Positions 29,680 to 48,180 of a stretch of DNA of 64,000 bases are shown here, piece by piece. The position numbers and the translations under genes are program-made. The stretch covers positions 1-64,000 of the forward strand of contig JAFYUS010000055.1 in the NCBI GenBank assembly GCA_017549505.1, given 5' to 3'. The number at the start of each line of letters is the position of its first letter. The stretch's first letter is position 1. The DNA is from Bacteroidales bacterium (GTDB taxonomy: Bacteria; Bacteroidota; Bacteroidia; Bacteroidales; UBA932). A model generated the notes under the pieces. It did no database searches. It was not told where the DNA came from and was given only the letters and a program-made list of their open reading frames with translations.

Positions 29680-30084
29680 CTATTCGACCTGTTCCACTTC
29701 TATGCCGGCTCTGACCAGGAGGTCGATGCCGTCCGTAAGACGGTATGCATCGCGGTAGACTACCCTCTTGATGCCCGCCTGTATTATCAGCTTTGCACAT
29801 TCCAGGCAAGGAGAAGCGGTCACATAAAGAGTGGCATCCTTGCTGCTGTTGCCGGACTGTGCTACTTTGGAAATGGCATTTGCCTCAGCATGAAGGACAT
29901 AGGGTTTGGTAACCCCGTTCTCATCCTCACATATGTTCTCGAATCCTGACGGTGTACCGTTGTAACCGTCTGAAATTATCATCCTGTCCTTTACGAGAAG
30001 TGCTCCGACCTGACGGCGCTTGCAGTATGAATTATGCGCCCAGACTCCTGCCATCTCGATGTAGCTGCGGTCAAACTTTTCCAT
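29680..30084 (-). CDS. comEB: dCMP/cytidine deaminase family protein
   Basis: 134 residues with the zinc-binding deaminase signature: HAEANAI with the catalytic Glu, and PCLECAKLI with the two Cys ligands. An extra Cys (NSYCKRRQVGA) near residue 21 fits dCMP deaminases of the ComEB type. The enzyme converts dCMP to dUMP, feeding dTMP synthesis. It sits 4-5 bases from its neighbours on both sides, inside the ridA-led operon. Confidence 0.88.
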   Translation of the reverse strand: MEKFDRSYIEMAGVWAHNSYCKRRQVGALLVKDRMIISDGYNGTPSGFENICEDENGVTKPYVLHAEANAISKVAQSGNSSKDATLYVTASPCLECAKLIIQAGIKRVVYRDAYRLTDGIDLLVRAGIEVEQVE

Positions 30085-30089
30085 AATAA

Positions 30090-31745
30090 TTATCTTTGAT
30101 ACAGATATCTCTTGATACTCTTCTTAGGGGTACGCTCGAAGTCTTCCGACATAACCTCTATCTTCTTGAGCTTCGCATAGTTAGGGAGTTCCTTATTGAG
30201 TTCAGGAAGAGTAGCCTCGATGAACTTGACGAAAGCGCTCTGGTTCATTCCTTCCTTGGCACCCTGGGCAAAATCCGGATAGATCAGTGCTGTAAGTCCG
30301 CCGTCATCCTCAACCACGAGCGAATCCACGACGTAAGGCTGGCTGTTGATCACGGTTTCAACTTCCTCCGGATAGATGTTCTGACCGCTTGGTCCAAGAA
30401 TCATGCACTTCGTACGTCCCTTGATGAACAAGCATCCGTCTTCATCCAGAATACCCATGTCACCGGTACGGAACCATCCGTCTTCTGTGAATACTTCTGC
30501 CGTAGCCTCTTCATTCTTATAATATCCGAGGAATACATTGGCACCCTTGATCTGGATTTCTCCCGGTACGTTCACAGGGTCAGTGGATGCAATCCTCACC
30601 TCCATGTTAGGAGCAGCCTTTCCGCATGAGTAGAGTTTCTCCTCCTTCCAGTCATCGTATGTGATGATAGGAGCGCACTCGGTCATTCCGTAACCGACCG
30701 TGAACGGGAAGTTCATCTTCTTGAAGAATGCCTCGACCTCCTTGTTGAAAGCCGCGCCTCCGATAATGACTTCATAGAATTCACCACCAAAAGCATTCAC
30801 AAGTTCCTCGCGTACCTTATTGAGGACTACCTGATTAAGACCAGGAAGCTTCATAAGGAACTTGATTCCCTCCTTCTCAAGCACAGGCTTTACCTTGCTC
30901 TTGTAAATCTTCTCAATGACAAGCGGCACAGCGATCACGACGCTAGGCTTGACCTCTGCAAGAGCCTGCATGATGATCTTAGGGCTCGGGAGTCTTGAAA
31001 GGAAATGCACGTGGCATCCTACAGACAACTCATACAGAACCTCGAACATGAGTCCATACATATGCGCACAAGGGAGCATTGAAACGACCCTTGACTTGCT
31101 GTTGAGCTGAGGGAGCACCTTCGTACCGAACTCCAGATTAGAGAAGATTGCGCGATATGGGATCATGACACCCTTTGAGAATCCTGAAGTTCCTGAAGTG
31201 TAGTTGATGACAGCGAGTTCATCAGCAGAATCCTCATAATAGTTCAGCATTTCAGGCTCGAACGCTTCCGGATATTTTCTTCCGAAGAGTTCGTTGAGAT
31301 GGACCTTGGCATCATAAATCTTCTCGTCCGCCGCATAGAGGATCTTGAACGTATTGACCTGTATGATAGCCTGCACATCCGGCATTTCGCTTTCTGAGAG
31401 TCCTTCCCAGATAACCTCGTCGACAAAGAGGATCTTTGCTTCGGAGTGATTTACCAGATGGTGGATATTGGCTGACTTGAACTCGTGAAGAAGGGGAACA
31501 GGGACTGCTCCGTATGTCATAGTCGCAAGAAAGGCAACTGCCCAGTTGGCCTGGTTTCTTGAACATATGGCCACCTTATGTCCCTTTTCGAGGCCGCACT
31601 CCTCAAACATGATGTGCAGCTTCTCCATTCTTCTGGCTACGTCTCTGAAGCATAGGGTCTCACCCTGATAATTTGAGATCGCAGGGCGAACCCAATTCTT
31701 CTTGAAGGATGCTTCAAAGATCTTGTTTACTGATTTGAATTCCAT
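30090..31745 (-). CDS. AMP-forming acyl-CoA synthetase (long-chain type)
   Basis: ANL superfamily: P-loop-like YTSGTSGFSKGVM near residue 180, GYGMTECAPI (A5), GWFRTGDMGILDEDG (A7) and KCMILGPSGQNIYPEEVE (A8), ending with a Lys in RTPKKSIKRYLY (A10). It activates a carboxylic acid to an acyl-adenylate and then the CoA thioester; the similarity is closest to long-chain fatty-acid ligases. No other fatty-acid genes are adjacent. It follows the unknown envelope protein gene by 21 bases and precedes comEB by 5. Confidence 0.88.
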   Translation of the reverse strand: MEFKSVNKIFEASFKKNWVRPAISNYQGETLCFRDVARRMEKLHIMFEECGLEKGHKVAICSRNQANWAVAFLATMTYGAVPVPLLHEFKSANIHHLVNHSEAKILFVDEVIWEGLSESEMPDVQAIIQVNTFKILYAADEKIYDAKVHLNELFGRKYPEAFEPEMLNYYEDSADELAVINYTSGTSGFSKGVMIPYRAIFSNLEFGTKVLPQLNSKSRVVSMLPCAHMYGLMFEVLYELSVGCHVHFLSRLPSPKIIMQALAEVKPSVVIAVPLVIEKIYKSKVKPVLEKEGIKFLMKLPGLNQVVLNKVREELVNAFGGEFYEVIIGGAAFNKEVEAFFKKMNFPFTVGYGMTECAPIITYDDWKEEKLYSCGKAAPNMEVRIASTDPVNVPGEIQIKGANVFLGYYKNEEATAEVFTEDGWFRTGDMGILDEDGCLFIKGRTKCMILGPSGQNIYPEEVETVINSQPYVVDSLVVEDDGGLTALIYPDFAQGAKEGMNQSAFVKFIEATLPELNKELPNYAKLKKIEVMSEDFERTPKKSIKRYLYQR

Positions 31746-31766
31746 TTATATCAAAGTTAAAGTACA

Positions 31767-33899
31767 TTATTTCACTGTTACAGTCCTGGTTTTGCCGTCA
31801 TAGCAGACAGCCTCGACTGTGGTACCGTCAACAACCTTTATTTCGCTGTCCGGTCTTATCATCTGATCTCCCTCGAATTTCGTGAGGGCGTCACCTCCAT
31901 AGAACGGGAAGATCTCTGTCCTGAGAGATGTCCTGACAACCCAGAAAGAGTTTCCGCCTACGGTTATCCTTTCCGGAAGGGACTTGATTGTCTCCTTGCC
32001 TTTGATACCTTTCCATGAGGCAGGCTTCTCGCCCTTGAGGTTGTACATCTCTATCGTATTGTCCTTATGAAGGACCATTATGTTATATCTCTTCGTACCG
32101 TTGAAGTCGTACACATCCGGTCCGAGAAGTATTTCCTTCTTAAGATCTACCGGAAATCCTGACACGTATCGTCCCAATCGGTCAATCAGGTAAATCCTGC
32201 TTCCGGCGCCGAAGATTATCTGCAGCTTGCCGTTGGCATAATAATCCACATTATATGCTGTACCGCAAAGAGGTTCCTTGAACGGTATGCCCCAAAGATC
32301 CTTTCCGTCTTCGCGCAGACACAGGGAAAGATGGGAGTTCTGGTAGAAGGAGTTCATCTTTCCTGTACCCGAATTCTTTACCTCGAACGGTCCCTTAGGG
32401 ATGATTACAGTTGTATCTCTCTCAAAGGTCGGCGCCTTGGTCTTCTGGAGTTGAAGCTTGTGGATGTCAAGAGAGAGTGACGGAGATGACTTGCCCGGAG
32501 ATACCGAAAAGACTGCCGGACTGTATTCGGCATCTGCATATAAAGATGATATCATATCCAAGAAAGCAGTCTTGAATGCTCCGTCAAGGATCTTATAATC
32601 CTCTGAGAATGAGAAATATGAAACAAAAGTAGACTTTCTTTCCGCAAGGAGGTCAGGCTGCATGGCATCTGCCATGTATTGTGTCAATGTATATCCGAGA
32701 GCTCTGCCGCTGACATACTCTTCCACCGCCTTCATGCTGCCGGAAATCACCCATCCGTTCATCCATGTGAAACAGGTTTCATCCTTACGGGAAAAGAGGT
32801 TTCCGAATACGGAAGCCGTAAAGCCGGCATATGGCCACGAATGGACAGCCGGTACATAATTCTTTTTTGAGAAGCCTTCAGTACCCTTGAAAAGCACCTC
32901 AGGAATATCCTTGCCGGTTCTGAGAAGGTTTACTGTCTCAAGCTTACCGCCCGCCATGAATGAAGCGACAGCAACCTCACGGACTCCTATCGACGCCATC
33001 AGGTCGTCAGGATGGACACCGGCCTTACCTGAAAGGGATTTCTTTGCTACGTTGTTCTTCTGGAGCATCTGGCGGGAATCCAGATATGAATCATATGCAT
33101 CCGTATAAGCCTCGAGCCCGCCGAGAGGCAGGGATGCCGCGAATACGGTATACGAAGGAAGGATTCCTGAAAGAGACGACACCGACGGCTGCGATTTCTG
33201 TAGCACCGTCATGAATTCAGATGCATCAGAATCATAGACGACGGAGCCATCCATTGAAAACACATTTCCCGATTCTGTGATATCGAATGCAGTCCATTCG
33301 GACAGACGCGACACGAATCCGGAATATGACGTATAAGCTCTTGTGAATACGGCAGGCATCAGGTAAGCAGCATGTTCATTGGAAACGAACAGGAGATCAT
33401 CTCCGCCAACGAGGCTGCATGCATCAGCAAACCCAGGAGCATCCATGACTGACATGGACTTTCCCAAATGTCGGATCGATGACTGCACAAGGACTTCAGA
33501 CTGTGAAGCGACCACTATTGTACGGCCCACAGTCGCGTTACGTACGACAAGCCCTTTGTCTTCAAGTTCACGTATAAGTTGTGACGCCTCGTCTGAAAGG
33601 CCACCTGTCTCCCCCGGGAGACCTGCATCATAGACATAAAGAGGGAGCAGTTTTCCGGAATAATGCATGGACACGGCCATCGGGCGCTCCTGCGGTCCCT
33701 TGTCTGAAAAACAAGCTACAAGAACAGCGTCAGAAGGCACTGCCGCAAGAAGCCTGTAACGGTCTTGCGACACCACCTTCGACGTCTTTTTTCCATTGTC
33801 CGGCTCTACTCCTTTATAAAGAAACGCAACGGCTATACCCGTTCCGACAATCAGAGCAGCTAAAATCGAAAGACAAAGTATGAGAGACTTTCTGCCCAT
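31767..33899 (-). CDS. Large membrane-anchored hypothetical protein
   Basis: 710 residues beginning with a single membrane helix (about 5-28; LILCLSILAALIVGTGIAV) and otherwise apparently extracytoplasmic. Residues about 45-470 contain repeated motifs of the kind PSDAVLVACF and VHPDDLMASIGVREVAVASF, somewhat like DUF3352-type proteins. Residues about 500-710 look like a partial beta-propeller (IIFGAGSRIYLIDRLGRYVS, YNIMVLHKDNTIEMYNLKGE). No catalytic motif is evident. It starts 2 bases after the ridA stop, so it is co-transcribed with ridA and the acyl-CoA synthetase. Function unknown; an envelope scaffold or ligand-binding role is only a guess. Confidence 0.75.
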   Translation of the reverse strand: MGRKSLILCLSILAALIVGTGIAVAFLYKGVEPDNGKKTSKVVSQDRYRLLAAVPSDAVLVACFSDKGPQERPMAVSMHYSGKLLPLYVYDAGLPGETGGLSDEASQLIRELEDKGLVVRNATVGRTIVVASQSEVLVQSSIRHLGKSMSVMDAPGFADACSLVGGDDLLFVSNEHAAYLMPAVFTRAYTSYSGFVSRLSEWTAFDITESGNVFSMDGSVVYDSDASEFMTVLQKSQPSVSSLSGILPSYTVFAASLPLGGLEAYTDAYDSYLDSRQMLQKNNVAKKSLSGKAGVHPDDLMASIGVREVAVASFMAGGKLETVNLLRTGKDIPEVLFKGTEGFSKKNYVPAVHSWPYAGFTASVFGNLFSRKDETCFTWMNGWVISGSMKAVEEYVSGRALGYTLTQYMADAMQPDLLAERKSTFVSYFSFSEDYKILDGAFKTAFLDMISSLYADAEYSPAVFSVSPGKSSPSLSLDIHKLQLQKTKAPTFERDTTVIIPKGPFEVKNSGTGKMNSFYQNSHLSLCLREDGKDLWGIPFKEPLCGTAYNVDYYANGKLQIIFGAGSRIYLIDRLGRYVSGFPVDLKKEILLGPDVYDFNGTKRYNIMVLHKDNTIEMYNLKGEKPASWKGIKGKETIKSLPERITVGGNSFWVVRTSLRTEIFPFYGGDALTKFEGDQMIRPDSEIKVVDGTTVEAVCYDGKTRTVTVK

Positions 33900-33901
33900 T
33901 A

Positions 33902-34276
33902 TTATTTAACGGCGATAGCCTCGATCTCCACCTTTACACCAAGAGGGAGCGCTGCCGCCTGATAACATGCTCTTGCAGGCTTGTCACCTGTGAAATACTC
34001 TGCATAAACCTCGTTAACAGCCTTGAAATCAGCTATGTCTGCAAGGAGAACAGTGGTCTTCACCACATTGTCATAATCCATTCCGGCTTCCTTGAGGATT
34101 GCGCCGATATTCTTGAGGGACTGATGTGCAGCCGCCACGATATCCTCCTGCACCTTTCCATCAACCGGATTGACAGGAATCTGGCCTGAGATATAAAGAG
34201 TTCCGTTTACTTCAATAGCCTGTGAATATGGACCTACCGCCTTTGGCGCATCTGGAGTTGCAATTACCTTTTTCAT
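33902..34276 (-). CDS. ridA: RidA-family enamine/imine deaminase
   Basis: 124 residues with the YjgF/YER057c signature: APKAVGPYSQAIEVNG at the start, LYISGQIPVNP and, near the end, the substrate-binding Arg in PARACYQAAALP. The enzyme hydrolyses reactive 2-aminoacrylate and related imines made by PLP enzymes. It is first gene of the run with the unknown envelope protein, acyl-CoA synthetase, comEB and S41 protease, and it has the best-formed promoter in the window. Confidence 0.94.
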   Translation of the reverse strand: MKKVIATPDAPKAVGPYSQAIEVNGTLYISGQIPVNPVDGKVQEDIVAAAHQSLKNIGAILKEAGMDYDNVVKTTVLLADIADFKAVNEVYAEYFTGDKPARACYQAAALPLGVKVEIEAIAVK

Positions 34277-34303
34277 TTTCTATCTGATGTTTGGTTAAAC
34301 ACA

Positions 34304-34334
34304 CAAAGATAACAATTATTTGCTTATAAGCAAA
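34304..34334 (-). promoter_or_regulatory. Consensus Bacteroidota promoter for ridA
   Basis: On the minus strand TTTG (34334-34331), exactly 19 bases, then TATCTTTG (34311-34304). Both halves match the consensus perfectly. Transcription would begin near 34297, about 20 bases before the ridA ATG. Confidence 0.75.
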
Positions 34335-34343
34335 GACACCTGA

Positions 34344-34712
34344 TTATGCGAAGGCATCGAAACGACCGTCATCATCAGGTTCCTGGAGCTCCCAATATAT
34401 CTCATCAAAACGGTCCCACAGTTCCTGCTGCCTGTCATTCATCTCTCCTTCGGCTGTGGCAAGATCATACAATATATCCTGCGCCCACATGTACTCCTCG
34501 TGTCCAAGATTGCAGACAGCTGCAGCCGCGGTGTCAAAATCCAGCAGATCCGCTATATTCATGACCGGACCCAGCTGTTCATCAGAAACAAAAGGTTTGA
34601 ACGAATATATGAATTTACGTATTGCCGCTTCATTCTGAGGATTATCGCTCTCCTGAAAAAGAGTGATTCCCATCTTCATGACGGCACTGAAATCTCTCAT
34701 CATGAATTCCAT
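34344..34712 (-). CDS. Small TerB-like helical protein (second of a tandem)
   Basis: I start at MEFMMRDFSAV (34712), 4 bases after the stop of the upstream gene; the frame's longer N-terminus would overlap that gene and is rich in Arg, Cys and Trp unlike the rest. The 122-residue product is all-helical and acidic. RKFIYSFKPFVSDEQLGPVM parallels RKFIYRFEGFTREEVNEVM in the upstream protein, and IADLLDFDTAAAAVC and LATAEGEMNDRQQELWD fit the later helices of TerB-like folds. It appears to be a diverged duplicate. Function unknown. Confidence 0.7.
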   Translation of the reverse strand: MEFMMRDFSAVMKMGITLFQESDNPQNEAAIRKFIYSFKPFVSDEQLGPVMNIADLLDFDTAAAAVCNLGHEEYMWAQDILYDLATAEGEMNDRQQELWDRFDEIYWELQEPDDDGRFDAFA

Positions 34713-34716
34713 AGTC

Positions 34717-35496
34717 CTACTCCTCCAATGTAAGCATCCCGCTGACCGCATCGTTGATGGCATCGAATATCTCCATTGCCTTCTTCATGGATTCTATTCC
34801 AACCACATTATACCCTTCATCAGTTTCAAGACAGAATGCTATGTTACCCATGATTTCATATCCGGTACCGTAAAGGACAGTACCTGTCATATTGTCACGT
34901 GCATCTTCCTTCAAAGCCGCATTTCTGTCCATCAGGAACACAAGATGGCTACGTACAAGACCCAGATCATAAGTCAGCTGCTTAAGGCGAGTGGTAAAAC
35001 GCACCACCTCAAGTCTCTCGGCACCGATGGCCGGAGCCACTGCCGCTTCAACATCACTCCACTCATTGCTGTCAGCCACGCATAGATTGACTTTACCATT
35101 TGTCTTTACAACTATGAAAAGCGGTGGAATCTGGTCTTCGCCCTGTCCTTCTATTACAGGCTGCGGAAGTCCGCACGCCTCTACCATAGCATTCAGCAGT
35201 TCCTCTTCCTTTGCAGAATATTCTCCGTTTATGACCGCAACCTCTGCAAGAAGATTTGCTACTTCTACCTTGGTCTCGTCATCAAAGGCAGTAATCAGCT
35301 GAAGTGCCCGCTGATCGGAAACTTCCTGCTGTCCAATCCTCATGACCTCATTGACTTCCTCCCGGGTAAAACCCTCGAAACGATAGATGAATTTACGGAA
35401 AGGGACTACCTCTTCCGGTGTGATTCCGCCATCGGCGTTCATCACGTAGACGCATACTCTGAAGATAGCGCCAAGTTCTTCATACGTAAGTGACAT
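34717..35496 (-). CDS. TerB-like domain protein with a C-terminal extension
   Basis: Residues 1-115 form a helical TerB/DjlA-like domain with the acidic signatures YVMNADGGITPEEV and LAEVAVINGEYSAKEEELL, which in TerB-fold proteins bind divalent metal. Residues about 125-255 are a separate alpha/beta region (PPLFIVVKTNGKVNLCVADS) with no family I recognise. There is no signal peptide. It is followed at 4 bases by the smaller paralogue, so the two probably act together, perhaps in stress signalling (inference). A TATATTTG element lies just upstream. Confidence 0.7.
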   Translation of the reverse strand: MSLTYEELGAIFRVCVYVMNADGGITPEEVVPFRKFIYRFEGFTREEVNEVMRIGQQEVSDQRALQLITAFDDETKVEVANLLAEVAVINGEYSAKEEELLNAMVEACGLPQPVIEGQGEDQIPPLFIVVKTNGKVNLCVADSNEWSDVEAAVAPAIGAERLEVVRFTTRLKQLTYDLGLVRSHLVFLMDRNAALKEDARDNMTGTVLYGTGYEIMGNIAFCLETDEGYNVVGIESMKKAMEIFDAINDAVSGMLTLEE

Positions 35497-35519
35497 AATA
35501 CTTGGGATTTAAACAATGA

Positions 35520-35527
35520 CAAATATA
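35520..35527 (-). promoter_or_regulatory. -7 element for the TerB-like pair
   Basis: Minus-strand TATATTTG (TAnnTTTG), 24 bases before the ATG at 35496. A TTGT lies 17 bases further up (35548-35545), slightly closer than usual. Confidence 0.45.
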
Positions 35528-35559
35528 ATGAATTTAAGAGAAATACAAGGGCGTAAACG

Positions 35560-35593
35560 CGACGAAGCCAGGCTTTTCAGCCTGGCTTCGTCG
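35560..35593 (-). terminator. 15-bp hairpin directly abutting tRNA-Arg
   Basis: Perfect stem CGACGAAGCCAGGCT / AGCCTGGCTTCGTCG with a 4-base loop that reads GAAA on the minus strand. It begins at the base after the tRNA discriminator. No strong T-run follows, so it may serve as both transcript end and 3'-processing landmark. Confidence 0.65.
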
Positions 35594-35665
35594 TAGCCCC
35601 GAGCAGAATCGAACTGCTATCTAAAGTTTAGGAAACTTCCATTCTATCCGTTGAACTACAGGGCC
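35594..35665 (-). tRNA. tRNA-Arg (anticodon CCU)
   Basis: Read on the minus strand: acceptor GGCCCTG pairs with CGGGGCT (two G-U pairs), D arm GTTC/GAAT, anticodon stem GAAGT/ACTTT with loop TTCCTAA giving anticodon CCT, 4-base variable loop, and T arm AGCAG-TTCGATT-CTGCT, discriminator A. It is 72 bases long and CCA is not encoded. It decodes the arginine codon AGG. It lies downstream of rpmF on the same strand and is followed at once by a 15-bp hairpin. Confidence 0.93.
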
Positions 35666-35680
35666 CAGTCGAGAAACTGA

Positions 35681-35863
35681 TTACTCAGCGTTCTTCTCGA
35701 TGATCTGACGACCTCTATAGTAGCCGCACTCTGGGCATACTCTGTGGTACATGATAGTTGCACCGCAGTTTGAACATGTAGCGAGCGTTGGAACTACTGC
35801 AACGTCGTGTGTTCTTCTCTTGTCTCGTCTCTGCTTAGAGACCCTGTGTTTTGGATGTGCCAT
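35681..35863 (-). CDS. rpmF: 50S ribosomal protein L32
   Basis: 60 residues opening MAHPKHRVSKQRRDKRRTH, with a zinc ribbon from Cys30, Cys33, Cys43 and Cys46 (CSNC and CPEC). It is a structural protein of the large ribosomal subunit. It follows the yceD-like gene by 27 bases, the usual yceD-rpmF pairing, but the fatty-acid genes plsX/fabH that often come next are replaced by tRNA-Arg and the TerB-like genes. Confidence 0.97.
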   Translation of the reverse strand: MAHPKHRVSKQRRDKRRTHDVAVVPTLATCSNCGATIMYHRVCPECGYYRGRQIIEKNAE

Positions 35864-35890
35864 TGTTCTATATTTTTAAATTATTAATAA

Positions 35891-36409
35891 TCATTTAAAC
35901 ATGTCCTTCAAAGCGGAGAAAGGATTGTTCTCCCCAGTTTCCGCTTCAACCGGTTCACCTGCTGCGAGATGCGCCATAGCGTCAGGATTACAGTCACCTT
36001 CTTCATGAACCCTCTGCATAGGAAGAGCCAGGCATACATAGTCATATATTATCTGACTCATGTCGAATTCCGCATCCGTCTCAGGGATGAAAACGACTTC
36101 ACGTTCTCCCTCACGATGCTCTTCAGACGACTCCTCATCACCATACTTGACACTCAGTTTCACCTCGACTTCCACCGGCATGATCAGGTCATCAAGACAC
36201 CTGTCACACTCTACCGTTACATCTCCCGTCACATCGCAATCGATACCGAGATAACGTCCCGACTTCTCCACAACCACCGATGCAACCAATTCTGCATCAA
36301 GTATTTCAGAGTTTTCAAAACTTTCGAAGAACTCTTTGCCGACCCTCCATTCATATTCATGATTTCCGGTCGTCAATCCATTTAGAGGTATTATAAATTC
36401 ACCGTTCAT
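35891..36409 (-). CDS. YceD/DUF177-family protein
   Basis: I start at MNGEFIIPLNGL (36409) because a well-formed promoter (36468-36438) lies downstream of the frame's first possible Met and would leave a leader of about 20 bases. The 172-residue product has the family's VECDRCLDDL block (CxRCL-like) and an acidic middle. DUF177 members are linked to 23S rRNA accumulation and are encoded before rpmF, as here. Cytoplasmic; mechanism unknown. Confidence 0.88.
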   Translation of the reverse strand: MNGEFIIPLNGLTTGNHEYEWRVGKEFFESFENSEILDAELVASVVVEKSGRYLGIDCDVTGDVTVECDRCLDDLIMPVEVEVKLSVKYGDEESSEEHREGEREVVFIPETDAEFDMSQIIYDYVCLALPMQRVHEEGDCNPDAMAHLAAGEPVEAETGENNPFSALKDMFK

Positions 36410-36437
36410 TCTGACCCATAAATAGATTTGAGCCCGC

Positions 36438-36468
36438 AAAGGTAACAAAAACTTTTGTCATTAGCAAT
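36438..36468 (-). promoter_or_regulatory. Promoter for yceD-rpmF
   Basis: Minus-strand TTGC (36468-36465), 19 bases, TACCTTTG (36445-36438; exact TAnnTTTG). The upstream half overlaps the end of typA. It decides the yceD start codon. Confidence 0.6.
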
Positions 36469-38269
36469 TTATCTCAGAACTTTTTCTTTTCCTATCAAGT
36501 TCACTGAGTAATATCTTCCTGAGTCTCATTGACTTAGGGGTTACTTCAACGAGCTCATCCTCCTGAATATACTCCAATGCTTCTTCAAGAGAGAAAACTA
36601 CTGGAGGAGGAAGCATGACCTTGTCATCACTGCCGGACGCACGCATGTTCGTAAGCTTCTTTGTCTTGCAGATATTGATGGTAAGGTCACGTTCACGAGT
36701 ATGTTCGCCGACAACCTGTCCCTCATATATATCCACACCAGGCTCAATGAAGAAACGTCCTCTGTCCTGGAGCTTATCCATCGAATATGCAACAGAGAGA
36801 CCTGTCTCCAGAGACACAAGCGATCCGTTTGTACGACGTTCTATATCACCCTTGTAAGGTTCATATCCTTTAAGACGATGAGCGACTACAGCCTCTCCCT
36901 GAGTTGCAGTAAGAAGATTGCTTCTGAGTCCCATAAGACCTCTTGAAGGGATGTCGAATTCGAGGTGGGTTCTGTCTCCTCTTCCTTCCATCTGGATCAG
37001 GGCACCCTTTCTACGGGTCACCATCTCGATCGCCCTTCCTACAAATTCCTCAGGAAGATCGATTGTCAGGTTTTCGATAGGCTCGCAACGCTGTCCGCCT
37101 ATCATCTTGTCAAGTACCTTTGGCTGTCCTACCTGAAGTTCAAATCCCTCGCGGCGCATGGTCTCGATGAGGACTGAAAGATGGAGGACACCACGTCCGT
37201 AGACGATGAATGAATCCGCATTCGGACCTGGCTTTACCCTGAGAGCAAGGTTCTTTTCAAGTTCCTTCTCCAGGCGCTCCTTCAGATGGCGCGAAGTCAC
37301 GAACTTGCCTTCTCTTCCGAAGAAAGGAGAGTTGTTGATGCAGAAGAGCATGCTCATGGTTGGCTCATCTACCTCGATAGGAGGAAGCGCCTCCGGATTT
37401 TCGAAGTCTGCAATGGTATCTCCGATCTCAAATCCTTCGACTCCGACAACCGCACAGATGTCTCCGCACTCGACTTCGTCAACCTTTGACTTTCCGAGTC
37501 CGTCGAATATCATCAGTTCCTTTATCTTCTGCTTCTGCAGGATATCATATCTTTTACAAAGAGTGATATTCATACCGGCCTTCAGAGAGCCGCGGGTCAC
37601 TCTTCCTACAGCGATACGGCCTACATATGGAGAGTACTCCAATGATGAAATCAGCATCTGCGGCGTTCCTTCAACCTTCTCCGGTGCAGGGATGACTTCA
37701 AGGATAGTATCAAGAAGAGGGGTGATATCCTCGGTCGGCTGTCTCCAGTCGTATGACATCCATCCCTGTTTTGCACTGCCGTATATGGTACGGAAGTCAA
37801 GCTGATCTTCTGTTGCTCCAAGAGAGAACATAAGGTCAAACACCTCTTCCTGTACTTCATCCGGACGACAGTTCAGCTTATCTACCTTATTTATTACCAG
37901 AACAGGTTTCTTGCCCATCTCGATGGCCTTCTGAAGAACGAAACGGGTCTGCGGCATACAGCCTTCAAATGCATCCACAAGAAGAATCACTCCGTCTGCC
38001 ATGTTGAGCACTCGTTCCACTTCTCCACCGAAGTCGCTGTGGCCCGGAGTGTCGATGACGTTTATCTTCACACCTTTGTATACCACAGACACATTCTTCG
38101 CGAGAATGGTGATGCCTCTTTCTCTTTCAAGATCGTTGTTGTCAAGGATCAGTTCTCCCAACTTCTCCTGCTCGCGCGCCTGACGCGCCTGGTAGATCAT
38201 GCGGTCGACGATGGTTGTCTTGCCATGGTCGACATGGGCGATGATCGCAATGTTTCTTATATCCTGCAT
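36461..38269 (-). CDS. typA: Translational GTPase TypA/BipA
   Basis: The GTPase domain has G1 HVDHGKT at residues 12-18, G3 [11 protein letters not shown] and G4 NKVDK. EF-G-like domains II, III and V follow, and the TypA-specific C-terminal domain ends the 602-residue protein. The ribosome-associated GTPase supports 50S assembly and stress adaptation. It is divergently transcribed from guaA with its own -33/-7 elements and an 86-base leader that includes a small hairpin (CGACCGG/CCGGTCG, 38332-38349). Confidence 0.96.
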
Positions 38270-38360
38270 AATATGCTAATAATTAATCTTCTCAAAGTTC
38301 AGTCACGTCCGGGACTGTGCATAAAAATCCACGACCGGCCAACCGGTCGAAAAAGATTTG

Positions 38361-38392
38361 CAAAAGTAGATATTTTTATAAAAAATTTGAAA
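38361..38392 (-). promoter_or_regulatory. Promoter for typA
   Basis: Minus-strand TTTC (38392-38389), 20 bases, TACTTTTG (38368-38361; exact TAnnTTTG). Start near 38354, so the leader is about 85 bases. Confidence 0.55.
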
Positions 38393-38401
38393 CACTTTTT
38401 T

Positions 38402-38409
38402 TATTTTTG
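38402..38409 (+). promoter_or_regulatory. -7 element for guaA
   Basis: TATTTTTG (exact TAnnTTTG), 26-33 bases before the guaA ATG at 38435. No good -33 match; the region overlaps the divergent typA promoter. It supports the short guaA start. Confidence 0.45.
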
Positions 38410-38434
38410 CGCCCGAATTAAATTATCAGAAACT

Positions 38435-39742
38435 ATGAAGCAGGACATGATCGTCATTCTGGATCTCGGAAGTCACGAGAACACCGTGGTAGCCAGAGCC
38501 ATCCGCGCACTGGGAGTATATAGTGAAATATACCCTCACGACATCACAGCAGCAGAGCTGAAGGCTCTGCCTAACGTAAAGGGAATCATCATCAACGGTG
38601 GTCCTAACAATGTAATCGACGGCGTTGCCATCGATGTACTTCCTGAAATCTATGAAGCAGGTTATCCTGTAATGGCGGCAGGTCATGACAAGGCTCTATG
38701 CGAAGTGAAGCTTCCTGAGTTCGGAAACGATGAGGAATTCATCAAGAACGCTGTGAAGGATTTCGTATTCGACACATGCAAGGCTGAGGCAAACTGGAAC
38801 ATGAAGAACTTCGTTGCTGACCAGGTAGAGCTCATCCGCAAGCAGGTGGGTGACCGCAAGGTTCTTCTCGCCCTTTCGGGCGGAGTGGACAGCTCAGTCG
38901 TAGCAGCTCTTCTCCTCAAGGCAATCGGAGAAAACCTCGTATGTGTACATGTGAACCATGGTCTCATGCGTAAGGGTGAGTCTGAGAATGTAGTAGAGGT
39001 GTTCAGAAACCAGCTTTGTGCAAATCTCGTATATGTAGATGCTACAGACCGTTTCCTCGGTCTTCTCGAAGGCGTTGCAGATCCTGAGCAGAAGAGAAAG
39101 ATCATCGGCGGTGAGTTCATCCGCGTATTCGAGGAAGAGGCCCGCAAGCTTGACGGTATCGACTTCCTCGGTCAGGGAACAATCTATCCTGACATCGTGG
39201 AGAGCGGTACAAAGACTGCAAAGATGGTGAAGTCACATCACAACGTAGGTGGCCTTCCTGAAGACATGAAGTTTGAACTCGTCGAGCCTATCAAGCAGCT
39301 CTTCAAGGATGAGGTCCGCGCATGTGGCGTTGAGCTCGGTCTTCCATACGAAATGGTTTACCGCCAGCCGTTCCCTGGCCCAGGTCTCGGAGTACGTTGT
39401 CTTGGAGCCATCACACGCGACCGTCTCCACTCTCTCCGCGAGGCTGATGCAATCCTCCGTGAAGAATTTGCAGCAACCGGTCTCGACAAGAAGGTATGGC
39501 AGTATTTCACTGTAGTTCCGGACTTCAAGTCAGTAGGTGTACGCAACAACGCCCGCTCATACGACTGGCCTGTGATCATCCGCGCCGTAAACACAATCGA
39601 CGCGATGACCGCAAGCATCGAACAGATCGACTGGCCTATCCTCATGAAGATTACTGACCGTATCCTCGCTGAGGTTCCGAACGTGAACCGTGTATGCTAC
39701 GACCTCTCTCCGAAGCCGTCAGCAACCATCGAGTGGGAGTAA
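38435..39742 (+). CDS. guaA: GMP synthase with a truncated, apparently dead glutaminase domain
   Basis: I start at MKQDMIVILDLGSHENTVVA (38435), which aligns with the usual GuaA N-terminus and follows a -7 element. The ATP-pyrophosphatase domain is intact: LSGGVDSSV near residue 147, GQGTIYPDIVESG, SHHNVGGLPE, QPFPGPGLGVR, and the C-terminal YDLSPKPSATIEWE. The class I glutaminase domain is only about 125 residues instead of about 190-200. At the nucleophile elbow the usual GICYGMQ-like motif is replaced by PVMAAGHDKAL, with Gly83 where the Cys should be. The sequence then passes straight to VKLPEFGNDEEFIKN, which aligns with the end of the domain (VQFHPE...LLKN) but lacks the His. The enzyme should make GMP from XMP with free ammonia, or with a separate glutaminase (inference). 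Confidence 0.9.
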   Translation: MKQDMIVILDLGSHENTVVARAIRALGVYSEIYPHDITAAELKALPNVKGIIINGGPNNVIDGVAIDVLPEIYEAGYPVMAAGHDKALCEVKLPEFGNDEEFIKNAVKDFVFDTCKAEANWNMKNFVADQVELIRKQVGDRKVLLALSGGVDSSVVAALLLKAIGENLVCVHVNHGLMRKGESENVVEVFRNQLCANLVYVDATDRFLGLLEGVADPEQKRKIIGGEFIRVFEEEARKLDGIDFLGQGTIYPDIVESGTKTAKMVKSHHNVGGLPEDMKFELVEPIKQLFKDEVRACGVELGLPYEMVYRQPFPGPGLGVRCLGAITRDRLHSLREADAILREEFAATGLDKKVWQYFTVVPDFKSVGVRNNARSYDWPVIIRAVNTIDAMTASIEQIDWPILMKITDRILAEVPNVNRVCYDLSPKPSATIEWE

Positions 39743-39761
39743 TCCTTTAGAAACATATGTC

Positions 39762-39833
39762 ATGCCCGGCTCGACCGGGCATCCCATACCGATCCCCGGA
39801 TGCGCGCGCGAACCACATCCGGGGATCGGTATG
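39762..39833. repeat. Double hairpin between guaA and the ORF6N gene
   Basis: Hairpin 1 is ATGCCCGG/CCGGGCAT (39762-39782). Hairpin 2 is a perfect 18-bp stem, 39785-39802 with 39816-39833, and a 13-base loop that begins with alternating CG. Both ends carry GTCAT. It probably terminates the convergent transcripts and resembles a repetitive extragenic palindrome. Confidence 0.65.
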
Positions 39834-40421
39834 TCATTTAAAGCCTATCTTCTTCGGTTCTGGTCTGTGTTCATGGTTTCCGGCATGCATTTCCGCCAAT
39901 GATTCATTTATAAGTTGTAATTGAAGCATGGTTTCTTCATTGATGTCATTCTGGTCCCTCAACACATCCTCCAAATAATGATTAAGCTCTGAAATACGCG
40001 ACTTCAAATGTTCAATGTCAGCAGTTATTCTATCAATTGTTACCAATGAGGTACGCATATGTACAAATGCTCGCATTATGTAAATATTGGCTTGAACTGC
40101 GACCTCACTTCGTAACAAACCAGAAAGCATGGCGATCCCTTCCTGCGTGAATGCATAGGGCATATAGCGGGTACCACCACGACCGTTTGAGGTGAAATTT
40201 CTGCACCTCAGAAAATCAAATTCATCCTTAGTCAATTCGAACATGAAGTCTGAAGGGAATCTGTTCATATTGGCCTTGACTGCCCTCTTGAGATTTTTGG
40301 TTTCTACCCCATAAAGAACAGCCAACTGATAATCCAACATGACCCTTCGCCCACGTAACTCAACAATCCATTCTGACAAGTTACGGTTTTCTATACTTTC
40401 TGGTAAAACAACATTTCCCAT
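39834..40421 (-). CDS. ORF6N domain-containing protein (phage-type KilA-N relative)
   Basis: I prefer the start MGNVVLPESIENRNL (40421) over the in-frame Met 14 codons upstream, whose extension is basic and unlike the family. Residues about 10-95 form the ORF6N DNA-binding domain: LRGRRVMLDYQLAVLYGVET, NRFPSDFMFELT, GGTRYMPYAFTQEGIAMLSG. The remaining 90 residues are helical and probably dimerising. The family is typical of phages and integrated elements but also occurs singly in Bacteroidota chromosomes. It is flanked by a double hairpin and a gene-poor AT-rich stretch, which suggests an acquired segment. Confidence 0.85.
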   Translation of the reverse strand: MGNVVLPESIENRNLSEWIVELRGRRVMLDYQLAVLYGVETKNLKRAVKANMNRFPSDFMFELTKDEFDFLRCRNFTSNGRGGTRYMPYAFTQEGIAMLSGLLRSEVAVQANIYIMRAFVHMRTSLVTIDRITADIEHLKSRISELNHYLEDVLRDQNDINEETMLQLQLINESLAEMHAGNHEHRPEPKKIGFK

Positions 40422-40490
40422 ACACTTGACTTTTTTCAATAAATTTCTGCATATAAGAAACATCTGTCAAATAAAAGTGACAAATTTCAT

Positions 40491-40649
40491 ATGATTATAA
40501 AAAACATTTTTCCTTTTTTTATAATCATCGCACTTTTCTTTGCATCGATGCGTCATTTCTTCTTTTTGAAAAGTCTCGAAAGGAAGAAGCCGCCGGATGT
40601 TGAAACAGAGGTGTCACTTAATATTTACTCCTGCGGAGCGAGCAATTGA
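40491..40649 (+). CDS. Possible small membrane protein (52 aa)
   Basis: ATG-to-TGA frame of 52 codons. Residues 1-27 are strongly hydrophobic (MIIKNIFPFFIIIALFFASM), followed by the basic stretch KSLERKKPP and a short polar tail. This is the usual look of a single-pass small membrane protein. No promoter element is clear, and AT-rich DNA can produce such frames by chance, so support is modest. A terminator-like hairpin with a T-run lies 190 bases downstream on the same strand. Confidence 0.3.
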   Translation: MIIKNIFPFFIIIALFFASMRHFFFLKSLERKKPPDVETEVSLNIYSCGASN

Positions 40650-40838
40650 TGAGGTTTGGCATATCCTGTAAAGTGATGATAGTCCCCCCATTTGCAATCA
40701 AGTGTATAAGATGATATGCACGCCTGTCGGCGGAATGCGACTTTTATTGCACTCTGTCGACAAATGGTGATAGTGTGGATATGAATTGTTGTGCAGTTGT
40801 AAGCTTCCCCTTTCACATTGATTATCAATCAGATTCAC

Positions 40839-40874
40839 AAAATCGCCTGCGTCAAATGACGCAGGCGATTTTTG
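40839..40874. terminator. Bidirectional terminator
   Basis: Perfect 15-bp stem AAAATCGCCTGCGTC (40839-40853) / GACGCAGGCGATTTT (40858-40872), 4-base loop, with T-runs in both directions. On the minus strand it can end the long operon that finishes with the histidine phosphatase; on the plus strand it could end a transcript over the small frame at 40491. Confidence 0.75.
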
Positions 40875-40936
40875 CTATCACACTGAATATCAGCTTATTA
40901 AAAATCATTACCCATAACTAATTATCAACCAACACA

Positions 40937-40982
40937 TTATGCAAACTGCGTGCTGCCAAAGGGGAGCACGCAGTTTGCATAA
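40937..40982. terminator. 18-bp perfect hairpin downstream of the histidine phosphatase gene
   Basis: TTATGCAAACTGCGTGCT (40937-40954) / AGCACGCAGTTTGCATAA (40965-40982) with a 10-base loop. No T-run on the minus strand, so it may protect the mRNA end or work with the terminator 65 bases further on. Confidence 0.6.
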
Positions 40983-41025
40983 ATTATTAAGAATCAATAC
41001 CTTACAGAGTGTATAAAGCAGGTAA

Positions 41026-41568
41026 TCAATCGGAGTAAACAAGCTGACAGCCGCAGTTAGGCATGGCGAAGGTTATGAACTCTTCGTTTTCCATATCGCG
41101 GAAGTAGCTGGAGATGACGCGGCAGATTCCGCCGTGGGAGACGATGAGAACCGTCTTGTCCTGCAGGGCAGGATCGTCAAGCAGACCCTTTATGAACGGG
41201 TATACTCTGGCAGCAACGTCCAGAAAGGACTCGCCGCCGGGATATCTCTTGAAGCACTTTCTCTTCTCGCTCTGGTATTCTTCAGACAGTCTGTCCTTGC
41301 CTTCGAATTCACCGAAATCATTCTCGTTAAGACAGGCTTCATGAAATACCTGACAGTCTTCCTGAAGAGCGGCAACAGCGAGACCGGTCTCCTTTGCACG
41401 ACTGAGAAGTGAAGTGTAGATCATATCAAAATGCGTATCCTTAAGTTCCCTGGCAGCGATTCGAGCCTGCTCTCTTCCCTTCTCGTTAAGGGGTATATCG
41501 GTGCTGCCCAGAATGCGGTTTTCCGCATTCCAGGCAGTCTCACCGTGTCTCATCATATAGATCTTCAT
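41026..41568 (-). CDS. Histidine phosphatase (phosphoglycerate mutase family)
   Basis: 180 residues with the phosphohistidine motif RHGET at residues 7-11, then LNEKGREQA, the acid loop near NENDFGEFEGKD and the second His in VSHGGICRV. Members hydrolyse or transfer phosphate on small metabolites (2,3-bisphosphoglycerate-like, cobalamin precursors, sugar phosphates); which one is not readable. It starts 9 bases after the GH2 gene stop, so it may dephosphorylate a sugar linked to that pathway (inference). Confidence 0.87.
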   Translation of the reverse strand: MKIYMMRHGETAWNAENRILGSTDIPLNEKGREQARIAARELKDTHFDMIYTSLLSRAKETGLAVAALQEDCQVFHEACLNENDFGEFEGKDRLSEEYQSEKRKCFKRYPGGESFLDVAARVYPFIKGLLDDPALQDKTVLIVSHGGICRVISSYFRDMENEEFITFAMPNCGCQLVYSD

Positions 41569-41577
41569 AGCAGACCA

Positions 41578-47369
<5,792 letters not shown>

Positions 47370-47385
47370 ATATTCCTTTCTTCTG

Positions 47386-48180
47386 TTACCAATTCTTTTC
47401 CTTCTGTCTCGACTTCAGGGCCTCGGCCTTCTGCTTGTTCACCTTGTCCTGAGTCTCCTTTTCCTTTGCCTGGATGGCCTGCAGCATCTGCTGGGCAGCC
47501 TGCGGGCTTATCTTAGGCTGCTGACCCTGATTCTGATCCTGCTTCTGCTGGTCGTTCTGATTGTTATTCTGGTTCTGATTCTGGTCCTGCTGATCCTTGT
47601 TCTGGTCCTGCTGGTCCTGATTCTGATCATCGTTCTGGTCCTGATTCTGATCCTGATTCTGATCCTGATCCTGCTCCTGATCCTGATTCTGATCCTGGTT
47701 CTGATCGTTGTTCTGGTTCTGATCCTGATTCTGCTGATTCTGCTGGTCTTCCAGCTTCTTCTTTGCGTAGATGTAATTTTCCTTCGCATCAAGATCTCCA
47801 GGATTCCTCAACAGAGATTCCTTGAACGCATCGACAGCAGCCTGCCAATCCTCGCATGCGATGGCAGCATCTCCCAGATTATAGAAATAATCAGCCGCAG
47901 AAGCACTTGCCGGAGCTACATCCTTGACAGTCTCCATGACCTTCCTGGCCTGTTCAAAGTCACCTTCACGGTAAAGTGTATTGGCAAGATTATAGTTCGC
48001 AGCCACAGAAAGGGAATCCTTCACAAGAGCCTTGCGGTAATCGATCTCCGCCTCCCTCCAGTTCTCTTTCTTGAAGTCACGGTTACCCCTGCGGACATCC
48101 TTCCTGTCCACCTGCGCCTGCATCTCCTGAGCGAACCCCACCCCCAGCAGTACAAACAATATGTATAATATTCTCTTCAT
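47386..48180 (-). CDS. batC: BatC, TPR protein with Gln/Asn/Asp-rich tail
   Basis: A signal peptide ends near MQAQ. TPR motifs fill about residues 25-125 (NYNLANTLYREGDFEQA, DYFYNLGDAAIACEDWQAAV). Residues about 140-225 are an extreme low-complexity tract built from QNQD, DQNQ and QQDQ units, followed by a Lys-rich helix (QAKEKETQDKVNKQKAEALK). BatC-type proteins sit in the periplasm with BatA/B. The tract is encoded by near-tandem trinucleotide-rich DNA that is prone to length change. The gene lies 2 bases from batB and 16 from batD/E. Confidence 0.88.
   Translation of the reverse strand: MKRILYILFVLLGVGFAQEMQAQVDRKDVRRGNRDFKKENWREAEIDYRKALVKDSLSVAANYNLANTLYREGDFEQARKVMETVKDVAPASASAADYFYNLGDAAIACEDWQAAVDAFKESLLRNPGDLDAKENYIYAKKKLEDQQNQQNQDQNQNNDQNQDQNQDQEQDQDQNQDQNQDQNDDQNQDQQDQNKDQQDQNQNQNNNQNDQQKQDQNQGQQPKISPQAAQQMLQAIQAKEKETQDKVNKQKAEALKSRQKEKNW

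Follow-up and report, generated by a model that had tools for sequence, protein, structure and literature searches.

Results

The short guaA gene and its product

The window, that is, the whole stretch of 64,000 nucleotides of Bacteroidales DNA that was analysed, carries a gene for a short GMP synthase (GuaA) beside a divergent typA/bipA gene (Table 1). The reading frame opens with an ATG at 38435, its stop codon ends at 39742, and its 435 codons contain no internal stops. In Pfam searches the dimerisation domain was found whole (GMP_synt_C, PF00958, residues 343-434, 125.6 bits), and the class I glutaminase profile (GATase, PF00117) aligned to residues 7-80 with positions 1-76 of its 190. With the NCBIfam models, the synthetase part scored 454.5 bits against a cut-off of 338.75 (guaA_Cterm, TIGR00884) and the glutaminase part 50.1 bits against a cut-off of 172.15, matching positions 1-75 of 188 only (guaA_Nterm). 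The P-loop and the DxxES, KSHHN and KDEVR motifs are all intact; the ATP-pyrophosphatase and dimerisation domains are thus complete, as the preliminary description of this locus had held.

Table 1. Features of the short guaA locus, in window positions.
Feature	Position	Strand	Basis
typA/bipA, divergent neighbour marking the replacement site	36461..38269	-	Genus comparison
CDS, short GMP synthase, 435 aa plus stop	38435..39742	+	ORF, Pfam, NCBIfam
N-terminal class I glutaminase part kept, residues 1-82, no catalytic residues	38435..38680	+	PF00117 at 7-80; dN/dS 0.029
Helix alpha1 interface motif RAIRA, residues 21-25, instead of (K/R)(K/R)XRE	38495..38509	+	92 sequences; motif per PMC10526850
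Deletion junction, residues 83-104; nucleophile elbow to HPE region gone	38681..38746	+	Alignments; dN/dS 0.102
Linker helix and ATP-pyrophosphatase domain, residues 105-342	38747..39460	+	TIGR00884, 454.5 bits; dN/dS 0.048
P-loop SGGVDSS, residues 148-154	38876..38896	+	S148-S153 invariant in a 46-row alignment
alpha11 motif DxxES, residues 253-257	39191..39205	+	Alignment; motif per PMC10526850
Lid-loop motif KSHHN, residues 266-270	39230..39244	+	Alignment; role per PMC10526850
alpha12 motif KDEVR, residues 291-295	39305..39319	+	Alignment; motif per PMC10526850
XMP-binding and dimerisation domain, residues 343-435	39461..39739	+	PF00958, 125.6 bits

Short GuaA aligned to the E. coli enzyme (PDB 1gpm) in two blocks, residues 5-86 to 9-89 and 95-435 to 183-525, with about 93 residues of 1gpm swapped for 8. 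The net loss of about 85 residues is close to the 75-80 first estimated. Neither the catalytic Cys nor the HPE motif is left in the short protein, whichever alignment is used, and both the guaA_Nterm score and the alignments place it outside the class I glutaminases with a Cys-His-Glu triad. The claim that the glutaminase had lost its catalytic core within a clean in-frame architecture was therefore confirmed by Pfam, NCBIfam and the 1gpm alignment. The placement of Gly83 at the Cys position stood in part: the Cys is gone and the Gly is kept in all 92 distinct short sequences, but MAFFT sets GHDKAL opposite the MSHGDTI segment, so that this assignment depends on the alignment. Full-length Bacteroidales relatives have 504-527 aa, another set has about 530-541 aa counted from the conserved start, and some full-length Bacteroidales GuaA proteins have an insertion at another place. 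The short protein also scores 543 bits against a cut-off of 400 with the equivalog model NF000848, "glutamine-hydrolyzing GMP synthase", and since it passes this model with no glutaminase site, automatic annotation is likely to mislabel it.

Just downstream lies a lone ORF6N-domain gene (window 39834-40463, minus strand), which does not follow guaA in the closest syntenic relative (L048). A tRNA gene (window 35594-35665, minus strand) sits between a TerB-like gene and yceD, and an Rfam search at the gathering threshold over window positions 30000-48000 returned nothing besides one tRNA.

Distribution of the short form

A survey of related genomes for the same deletion, as proposed in the preliminary description, found that the short form recurs in the family, in the order and in the genus group of Bacteroides clarus. 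Full-span matches with 83-93% identity were present in 10 of 198 other genomes of the family, in a search that gave best matches only and left out the second, weaker matches of four genomes (G166, G031, G011 and G049). Across the order, 8 of 392 genomes, the window's own included, carry the short form, in families f1, f21, f24, f80 and f95. The named strain B. clarus YIT 12056 carries it as well, 89% identical to that of the window, and so do 27 of the 119 genomes of its genus group over residues 1-435, with three more partial matches (G677, G629, G687). This group (the genus of G199) spans genomes of 1.7-7.1 Mb and may exceed Bacteroides sensu stricto; metagenome-assembled genomes (MAGs) bear the organism labels given by their submitters. 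At least 80 loci in public genomes have the short form, the best 80 all matching over residues 1-435 with 89-97% identity. Altogether at least 92 distinct short sequences were gathered; among these full-span matches, 85 are 435 aa long and 7 are 436 aa long. According to the record titles, 63 of the best 80 public loci come from the caecum, colon or rectum of ruminants and deer, which points to the hindgut rather than the rumen as the habitat; the other titles give no site.

Absence of a GuaA-type glutaminase in most short-form genomes

One GMP_synt_C match was found in the window's genome, which is 77.8% complete, and thus the proposed check for a second full-length guaA turned up none. No guaA_Nterm match above cut-off was found there either, with a second guaA possible at this completeness, and the only other class I glutaminase match was CarA. 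The same absence of guaA_Nterm above cut-off was seen in 15 of 21 short-form genomes, the window's own included; the six with such a match were G172, G199, G280, G365, G295 and G446. As a control, guaA_Nterm was above cut-off in 14 of 14 named genomes. Thirteen of the 15 genomes have a known completeness, on average 92.1% (99% in G004, G466 and G326), giving a probability of about 3e-17 that all 13 miss the gene by incompleteness alone, a figure that assumes independence, while related genomes are not strictly independent. PF00117 was run on 24 genomes, and in G004, 99% complete, it found no class I glutaminase besides CarA (419.9 bits, cut-off 307.35) and the stump. In several short-form genomes there are further class I glutaminase-like proteins, whose open frames measure 196-287 aa. 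No separate glutaminase gene of the kind found in two-subunit GMP synthases was thus above cut-off in 15 of 21 short-form genomes, and the guaA_Nterm and PF00117 searches found no glutaminase committed to the short enzyme, either fused or acting in trans. IMP dehydrogenase was above cut-off in 23 of 26 genomes, G000 and G004 among them (below it in G166, G172 and G023), so that XMP can be made.

Phylogeny and independent losses

A tree built from 83 ATP-pyrophosphatase domains included 29 of the 92 distinct short sequences, and these made up one group, with support of 94/84, just under the tool's mark for strong support. Seventeen stand-alone forms of about 330 aa with no glutaminase made up another (100/99), and the two groups were sisters (100/99), with a warning from the tool that long branches meet at their base. 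Among 18 genomes of the stand-alone sister group, guaA_Nterm was above cut-off in 14 and not in G026, G044, G193 and G382. Elsewhere, six stand-alone proteins (G023, G059, G036, G027, G188, G080) lie together inside the ordinary GuaA clade (96/92), and the pair of G106 and G117 (100/100) falls, together with five full-length proteins, inside a group that is itself supported (98/87). The G117 protein is a stand-alone form in the ordinary clade; that of G106 (L173:3083-4345, 420 aa) has an internal deletion of its own, which kept the N-terminal strands and helix alpha1 and lost the Cys/HPE region. None of these eight ordinary-clade genomes had guaA_Nterm above cut-off, two of them being only 80% complete. 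The losses in the sister pair, in the six-protein group and in the G106/G117 pair indicate at least three independent losses of the glutaminase. The short form did not arise, as had been assumed, by deletion within the native guaA of the organism; it is an old paralogue, one group in the tree, which apparently displaced the full-length gene.

The stand-alone ATP-pyrophosphatase GuaA proteins at L174, L175, L176, L177, L178, L179 and L181 are 314-369 aa long and come from genomes where no glutaminase of the GuaA type passed the cut-off. Two other apparent stand-alone forms, G042 (L029) and G462 (L180), were not counted as losses, because contig ends cut their genes.

Transfer between families and replacement at the typA site

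Within families, short and full-length proteins diverge about equally (short/full identities of 95/94, 94/93 and 93/93%; 94/90 and 94/91% for the L072 pairs), which rules out slow evolution as the cause of high identity between families. Across families, short forms share 89-92% identity, whereas the full-length proteins of the same genomes share 71-77%, and this difference points to horizontal spread. The short GuaA of the window is 86-91% identical to those short forms, and full-length proteins of its family are 66-69% identical to their full-length ones. The short gene has apparently moved between families. Full-length genes can be mobile as well, which weakens the argument: the full-length GuaA of G172 shares 74% identity with its B. 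clarus counterpart and 63% with that of G022, a member of its own family, and this gene may have moved too.

In 14 of 18 genomes of the same genus, typA stands divergent beside a full-length guaA frame (G022, G041, G058, G072, G084, G107, G118, G139, G157, G165, G177, G183, G189, G195; judged from coordinates and open-frame length only in G084, G157 and G195); the pairing is absent from G096, G129, G149 and G171. The window's TypA is 88-90% identical to that of 11 of the 14, 81-83% to that of G084, G157 and G195, and 69% to that of B. clarus, whose short GuaA is by contrast 89% identical to the window's. Since the short gene occupies this site in the window and its close relatives, such as L032 and L048, it has apparently displaced the full-length guaA beside typA in the window's lineage.

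Other loci show both genes together. The short gene lies directly behind the full-length guaA in B. clarus and at six further loci, namely in two more MAGs labelled Bacteroides and in four f80 and f95 genomes. Among the 27 short-bearing genomes of the B. clarus genus group, 8 have the genes in tandem by coordinates, 17 have them not adjacent and 2 have the short gene only. At 15 of 89 loci gapA and mscL stand just before the guaA site; both forms are present at two of these (L072, L107) and the short gene is alone at 13 (L044, L049, L051, L054, L058, L076, L078, L080, L087, L105, L108, L228, L229), two of which, L228 (G622) and L229 (G693), belong to genomes where only the short form was found. 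Loss of the full-length partner is thus visible at this site, and the tandem of full-length and short genes shows how replacement can start. One short copy in G629 (C1:3460004-3460828), matched over residues 161-435 only, has an in-frame TAG, as if decaying, in a genome that also has full-length GuaA.

Selection on the remaining glutaminase segment

The dN/dS ratio, taken from 152 non-independent pairs of 85 sequences with pS of 0.05-0.55, was 0.029 for residues 1-82 (codon bootstrap 0.018-0.042), 0.048 for residues 105-342 (0.034-0.062) and 0.059 for residues 343-435 (0.035-0.088); the least constrained segment was the junction at residues 83-104, with 0.102 (0.053-0.169). The ratio of amino-acid divergence in the N-terminal part to that in the ATP-pyrophosphatase domain was 1.21 both in 20 short and in 21 full-length proteins. 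At helix alpha1, the short forms read RAIRA (83 of 92), RAVRA (6 of 92) or RAIRS (3 of 92); all 92 retain the first basic residue of (K/R)(K/R)XRE but have lost both the second one and the Glu.

Discussion

Our results point to a GMP synthase that has the synthetase part of the enzyme and lacks the glutamine-hydrolysing one, and the short GuaA may accordingly be classed as a variant of a known enzyme. It resembles GuaA (EC 6.3.5.2; 1gpm) in its complete ATP-pyrophosphatase and dimerisation domains, in the named motifs and in the glutaminase strands and helix alpha1 that it retains, but differs in missing about 90 residues that hold the catalytic Cys, His and Glu and in its altered alpha1 motif. 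NadE is not known to carry a dead glutaminase stump. Single-domain NadE is comparable in being a synthetase of the same ATP-pyrophosphatase type with no glutaminase, and it uses ammonia in vivo (PMC3376133), an ammonia-only form of NAD synthetase being argued for in the same source. Unlike short GuaA it acts on another substrate, and its single-domain form has been proposed as the ancestral one, whereas short GuaA looks derived by loss. The archaeal two-subunit GMP synthase (2dpl, 6jp9) is similar in that its ATP-pyrophosphatase subunit takes external ammonia in vitro (PMC10526850), but it has its own glutaminase subunit, of which 15 of the 21 short-form genomes show no counterpart, and the short form has the stump fused on. 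The figure of 15 genomes also contrasts with a survey of 730 genomes whose Table 1 gives guaA as fused to a glutaminase in 100% and as lacking one in none (PMC3376133). Among the papers listed from the open-licence literature, none described a bacterial GMP synthase without glutaminase, as judged by titles and the beginnings of abstracts.

The nitrogen donor of short GuaA is most likely free ammonia. ATP would adenylate XMP in the usual pyrophosphatase site, and ammonia from the ammonia-rich gut would attack the adenyl-XMP directly. Both the two-domain GMP synthases studied and isolated archaeal ATP-pyrophosphatase subunits accept external ammonia in vitro, with an ammonium Km of 26 to 174 mM (PMC10526850), and in rumen bacteria ammonium has been termed the preferred nitrogen source (PMC5552732). 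With so high a Km, the short enzyme would have to run below saturation or have an improved Km. Of the two sources first suggested, free ammonia or a separate subunit, ammonia is thus the likelier, and the subunit is disfavoured by the 15 genomes lacking a GuaA-type glutaminase and by G004, which has CarA only.

The dN/dS of 0.029 reflects strong purifying selection, and hence the stump is kept for something, in agreement with the earlier proposal that the remnant serves a non-catalytic purpose; a role as structural lid fits the selection data. In published structures the alpha1 motif (K/R)(K/R)XRE of the glutaminase docks on alpha11 and alpha12, and in the Plasmodium enzyme Lys24 pairs with Asp412/413 on alpha12 (PMC10526850). 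The stump is perhaps retained for such docking: its first strands and helix alpha1 probably sit on alpha11/alpha12 and help to place the lid over the intermediate, and the docked stump would do so without rotating and gating as a functional glutaminase must. We infer that it still docks with no need for allosteric coupling to a working glutaminase.

Taken as a whole, the explanation that short GuaA aminates XMP with free ammonia, that its stump docks, and that its gene was acquired horizontally and replaced the full-length gene by typA is, in our judgement, very probable on the strength of these comparisons. Several observations tell against it. Six of the 21 short-form genomes also have full-length GuaA, and there the short form is perhaps not the main enzyme; the stand-alone proteins of the sister group show that a stump is dispensable in principle; the docking motif is changed in every short sequence; and the window's genome, 77.8% complete, is on its own insufficient with regard to a second guaA. 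A wider version, in which a mobile ammonia-only GMP synthase with a dead half-glutaminase as its docking or lid module repeatedly takes the place of the glutamine-dependent enzyme in Bacteroidales of the gut, the G106 lineage having reached a similar deletion independently, is put forward tentatively, as slightly less than an even bet.

For genomes with both forms there is a different reading, in which the short protein assists the full-length one, as a regulatory or low-glutamine partner, for example in a mixed dimer through the dimerisation domain. The tandem genes of B. clarus, of two Bacteroides-labelled MAGs and of four f80 and f95 genomes, and of 8 of the 27 short-bearing genomes in the B. 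clarus group, agree with such a partnership, but 15 of 21 genomes have no full-length partner, 17 of the 27 have the two genes apart and 2 have the short one only, and the short copy of G629 carries an in-frame stop, which together make this role unlikely. If the stump were instead a landing pad for a glutaminase acting in trans, the enzyme would stay glutamine-dependent. Its very strong conservation, the two-subunit nature of archaeal GMP synthases (PMC10526850, PMC9312489) and the glutaminase-like frames of 196-287 aa in several short-form genomes would agree with that, and yet 15 genomes, 99%-complete G004 with its lone CarA among them, show no GuaA-type glutaminase above cut-off. Nor is there a glutaminase among the recurrent neighbours identified in 80 loci (YceD, TypA, M23 peptidase, phosphomannomutase, peptide deformylase, GAPDH and MscL), and we regard a trans-acting partner as quite improbable.

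Proteins with no glutaminase domain at all occur in the sister group and in two other lineages, which could mean that the stump is a neutral vestige, slowly disappearing on the way to a stand-alone form. Such drift is hard to square with a dN/dS no higher in the stump than in the catalytic domain, with relaxation confined to the junction, or with the length of 435 or 436 aa seen among full-span matches, and it seems to us very doubtful. An artefact of sequencing, assembly or binning might be suspected in a genome of 69 contigs at 77.8% completeness; its chances are negligible. A sequencing, assembly or frameshift error is ruled out because 92 distinct sequences and the assembly of B. clarus YIT 12056 show this form, and a mis-binned contig is ruled out by the adjoining typA, which fits the genus (88-90% identity to 11 members), and by an upstream gene order common to close relatives.

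If the reading as a mobile ammonia-only enzyme is true, the nitrogen donor has been switched at a central step of nucleotide synthesis. Short GuaA would then be an example of a change of nitrogen donor, possibly connected with an ammonia-rich habitat, and a natural experiment on how GMP synthases retain their intermediate and let ammonia in with no glutaminase rotating or gating.

As a side observation, CTP synthase (PF06418) was not found in 11 of 25 genomes, of which one is 99% complete (G000, G004, G140, G086, G166, G145, G125, G027, G080, G200, G201), nor in 6 of 49 further ones. Among genomes at least 90% complete, PyrG was absent from 7 of 15 without full-length GuaA and from 5 of 48 with it (Fisher p 0.005, kinship ignored; of the 48, 8 were checked by guaA_Nterm and 40 by open frame only). 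We do not claim a link in which an ammonia-loving lineage also sheds CTP synthase, as 4 of the 5 and 2 of the 7 PyrG-less genomes share genus g16. The genomes in which CTP synthase was not found may live by cytidine salvage or by an unknown route.
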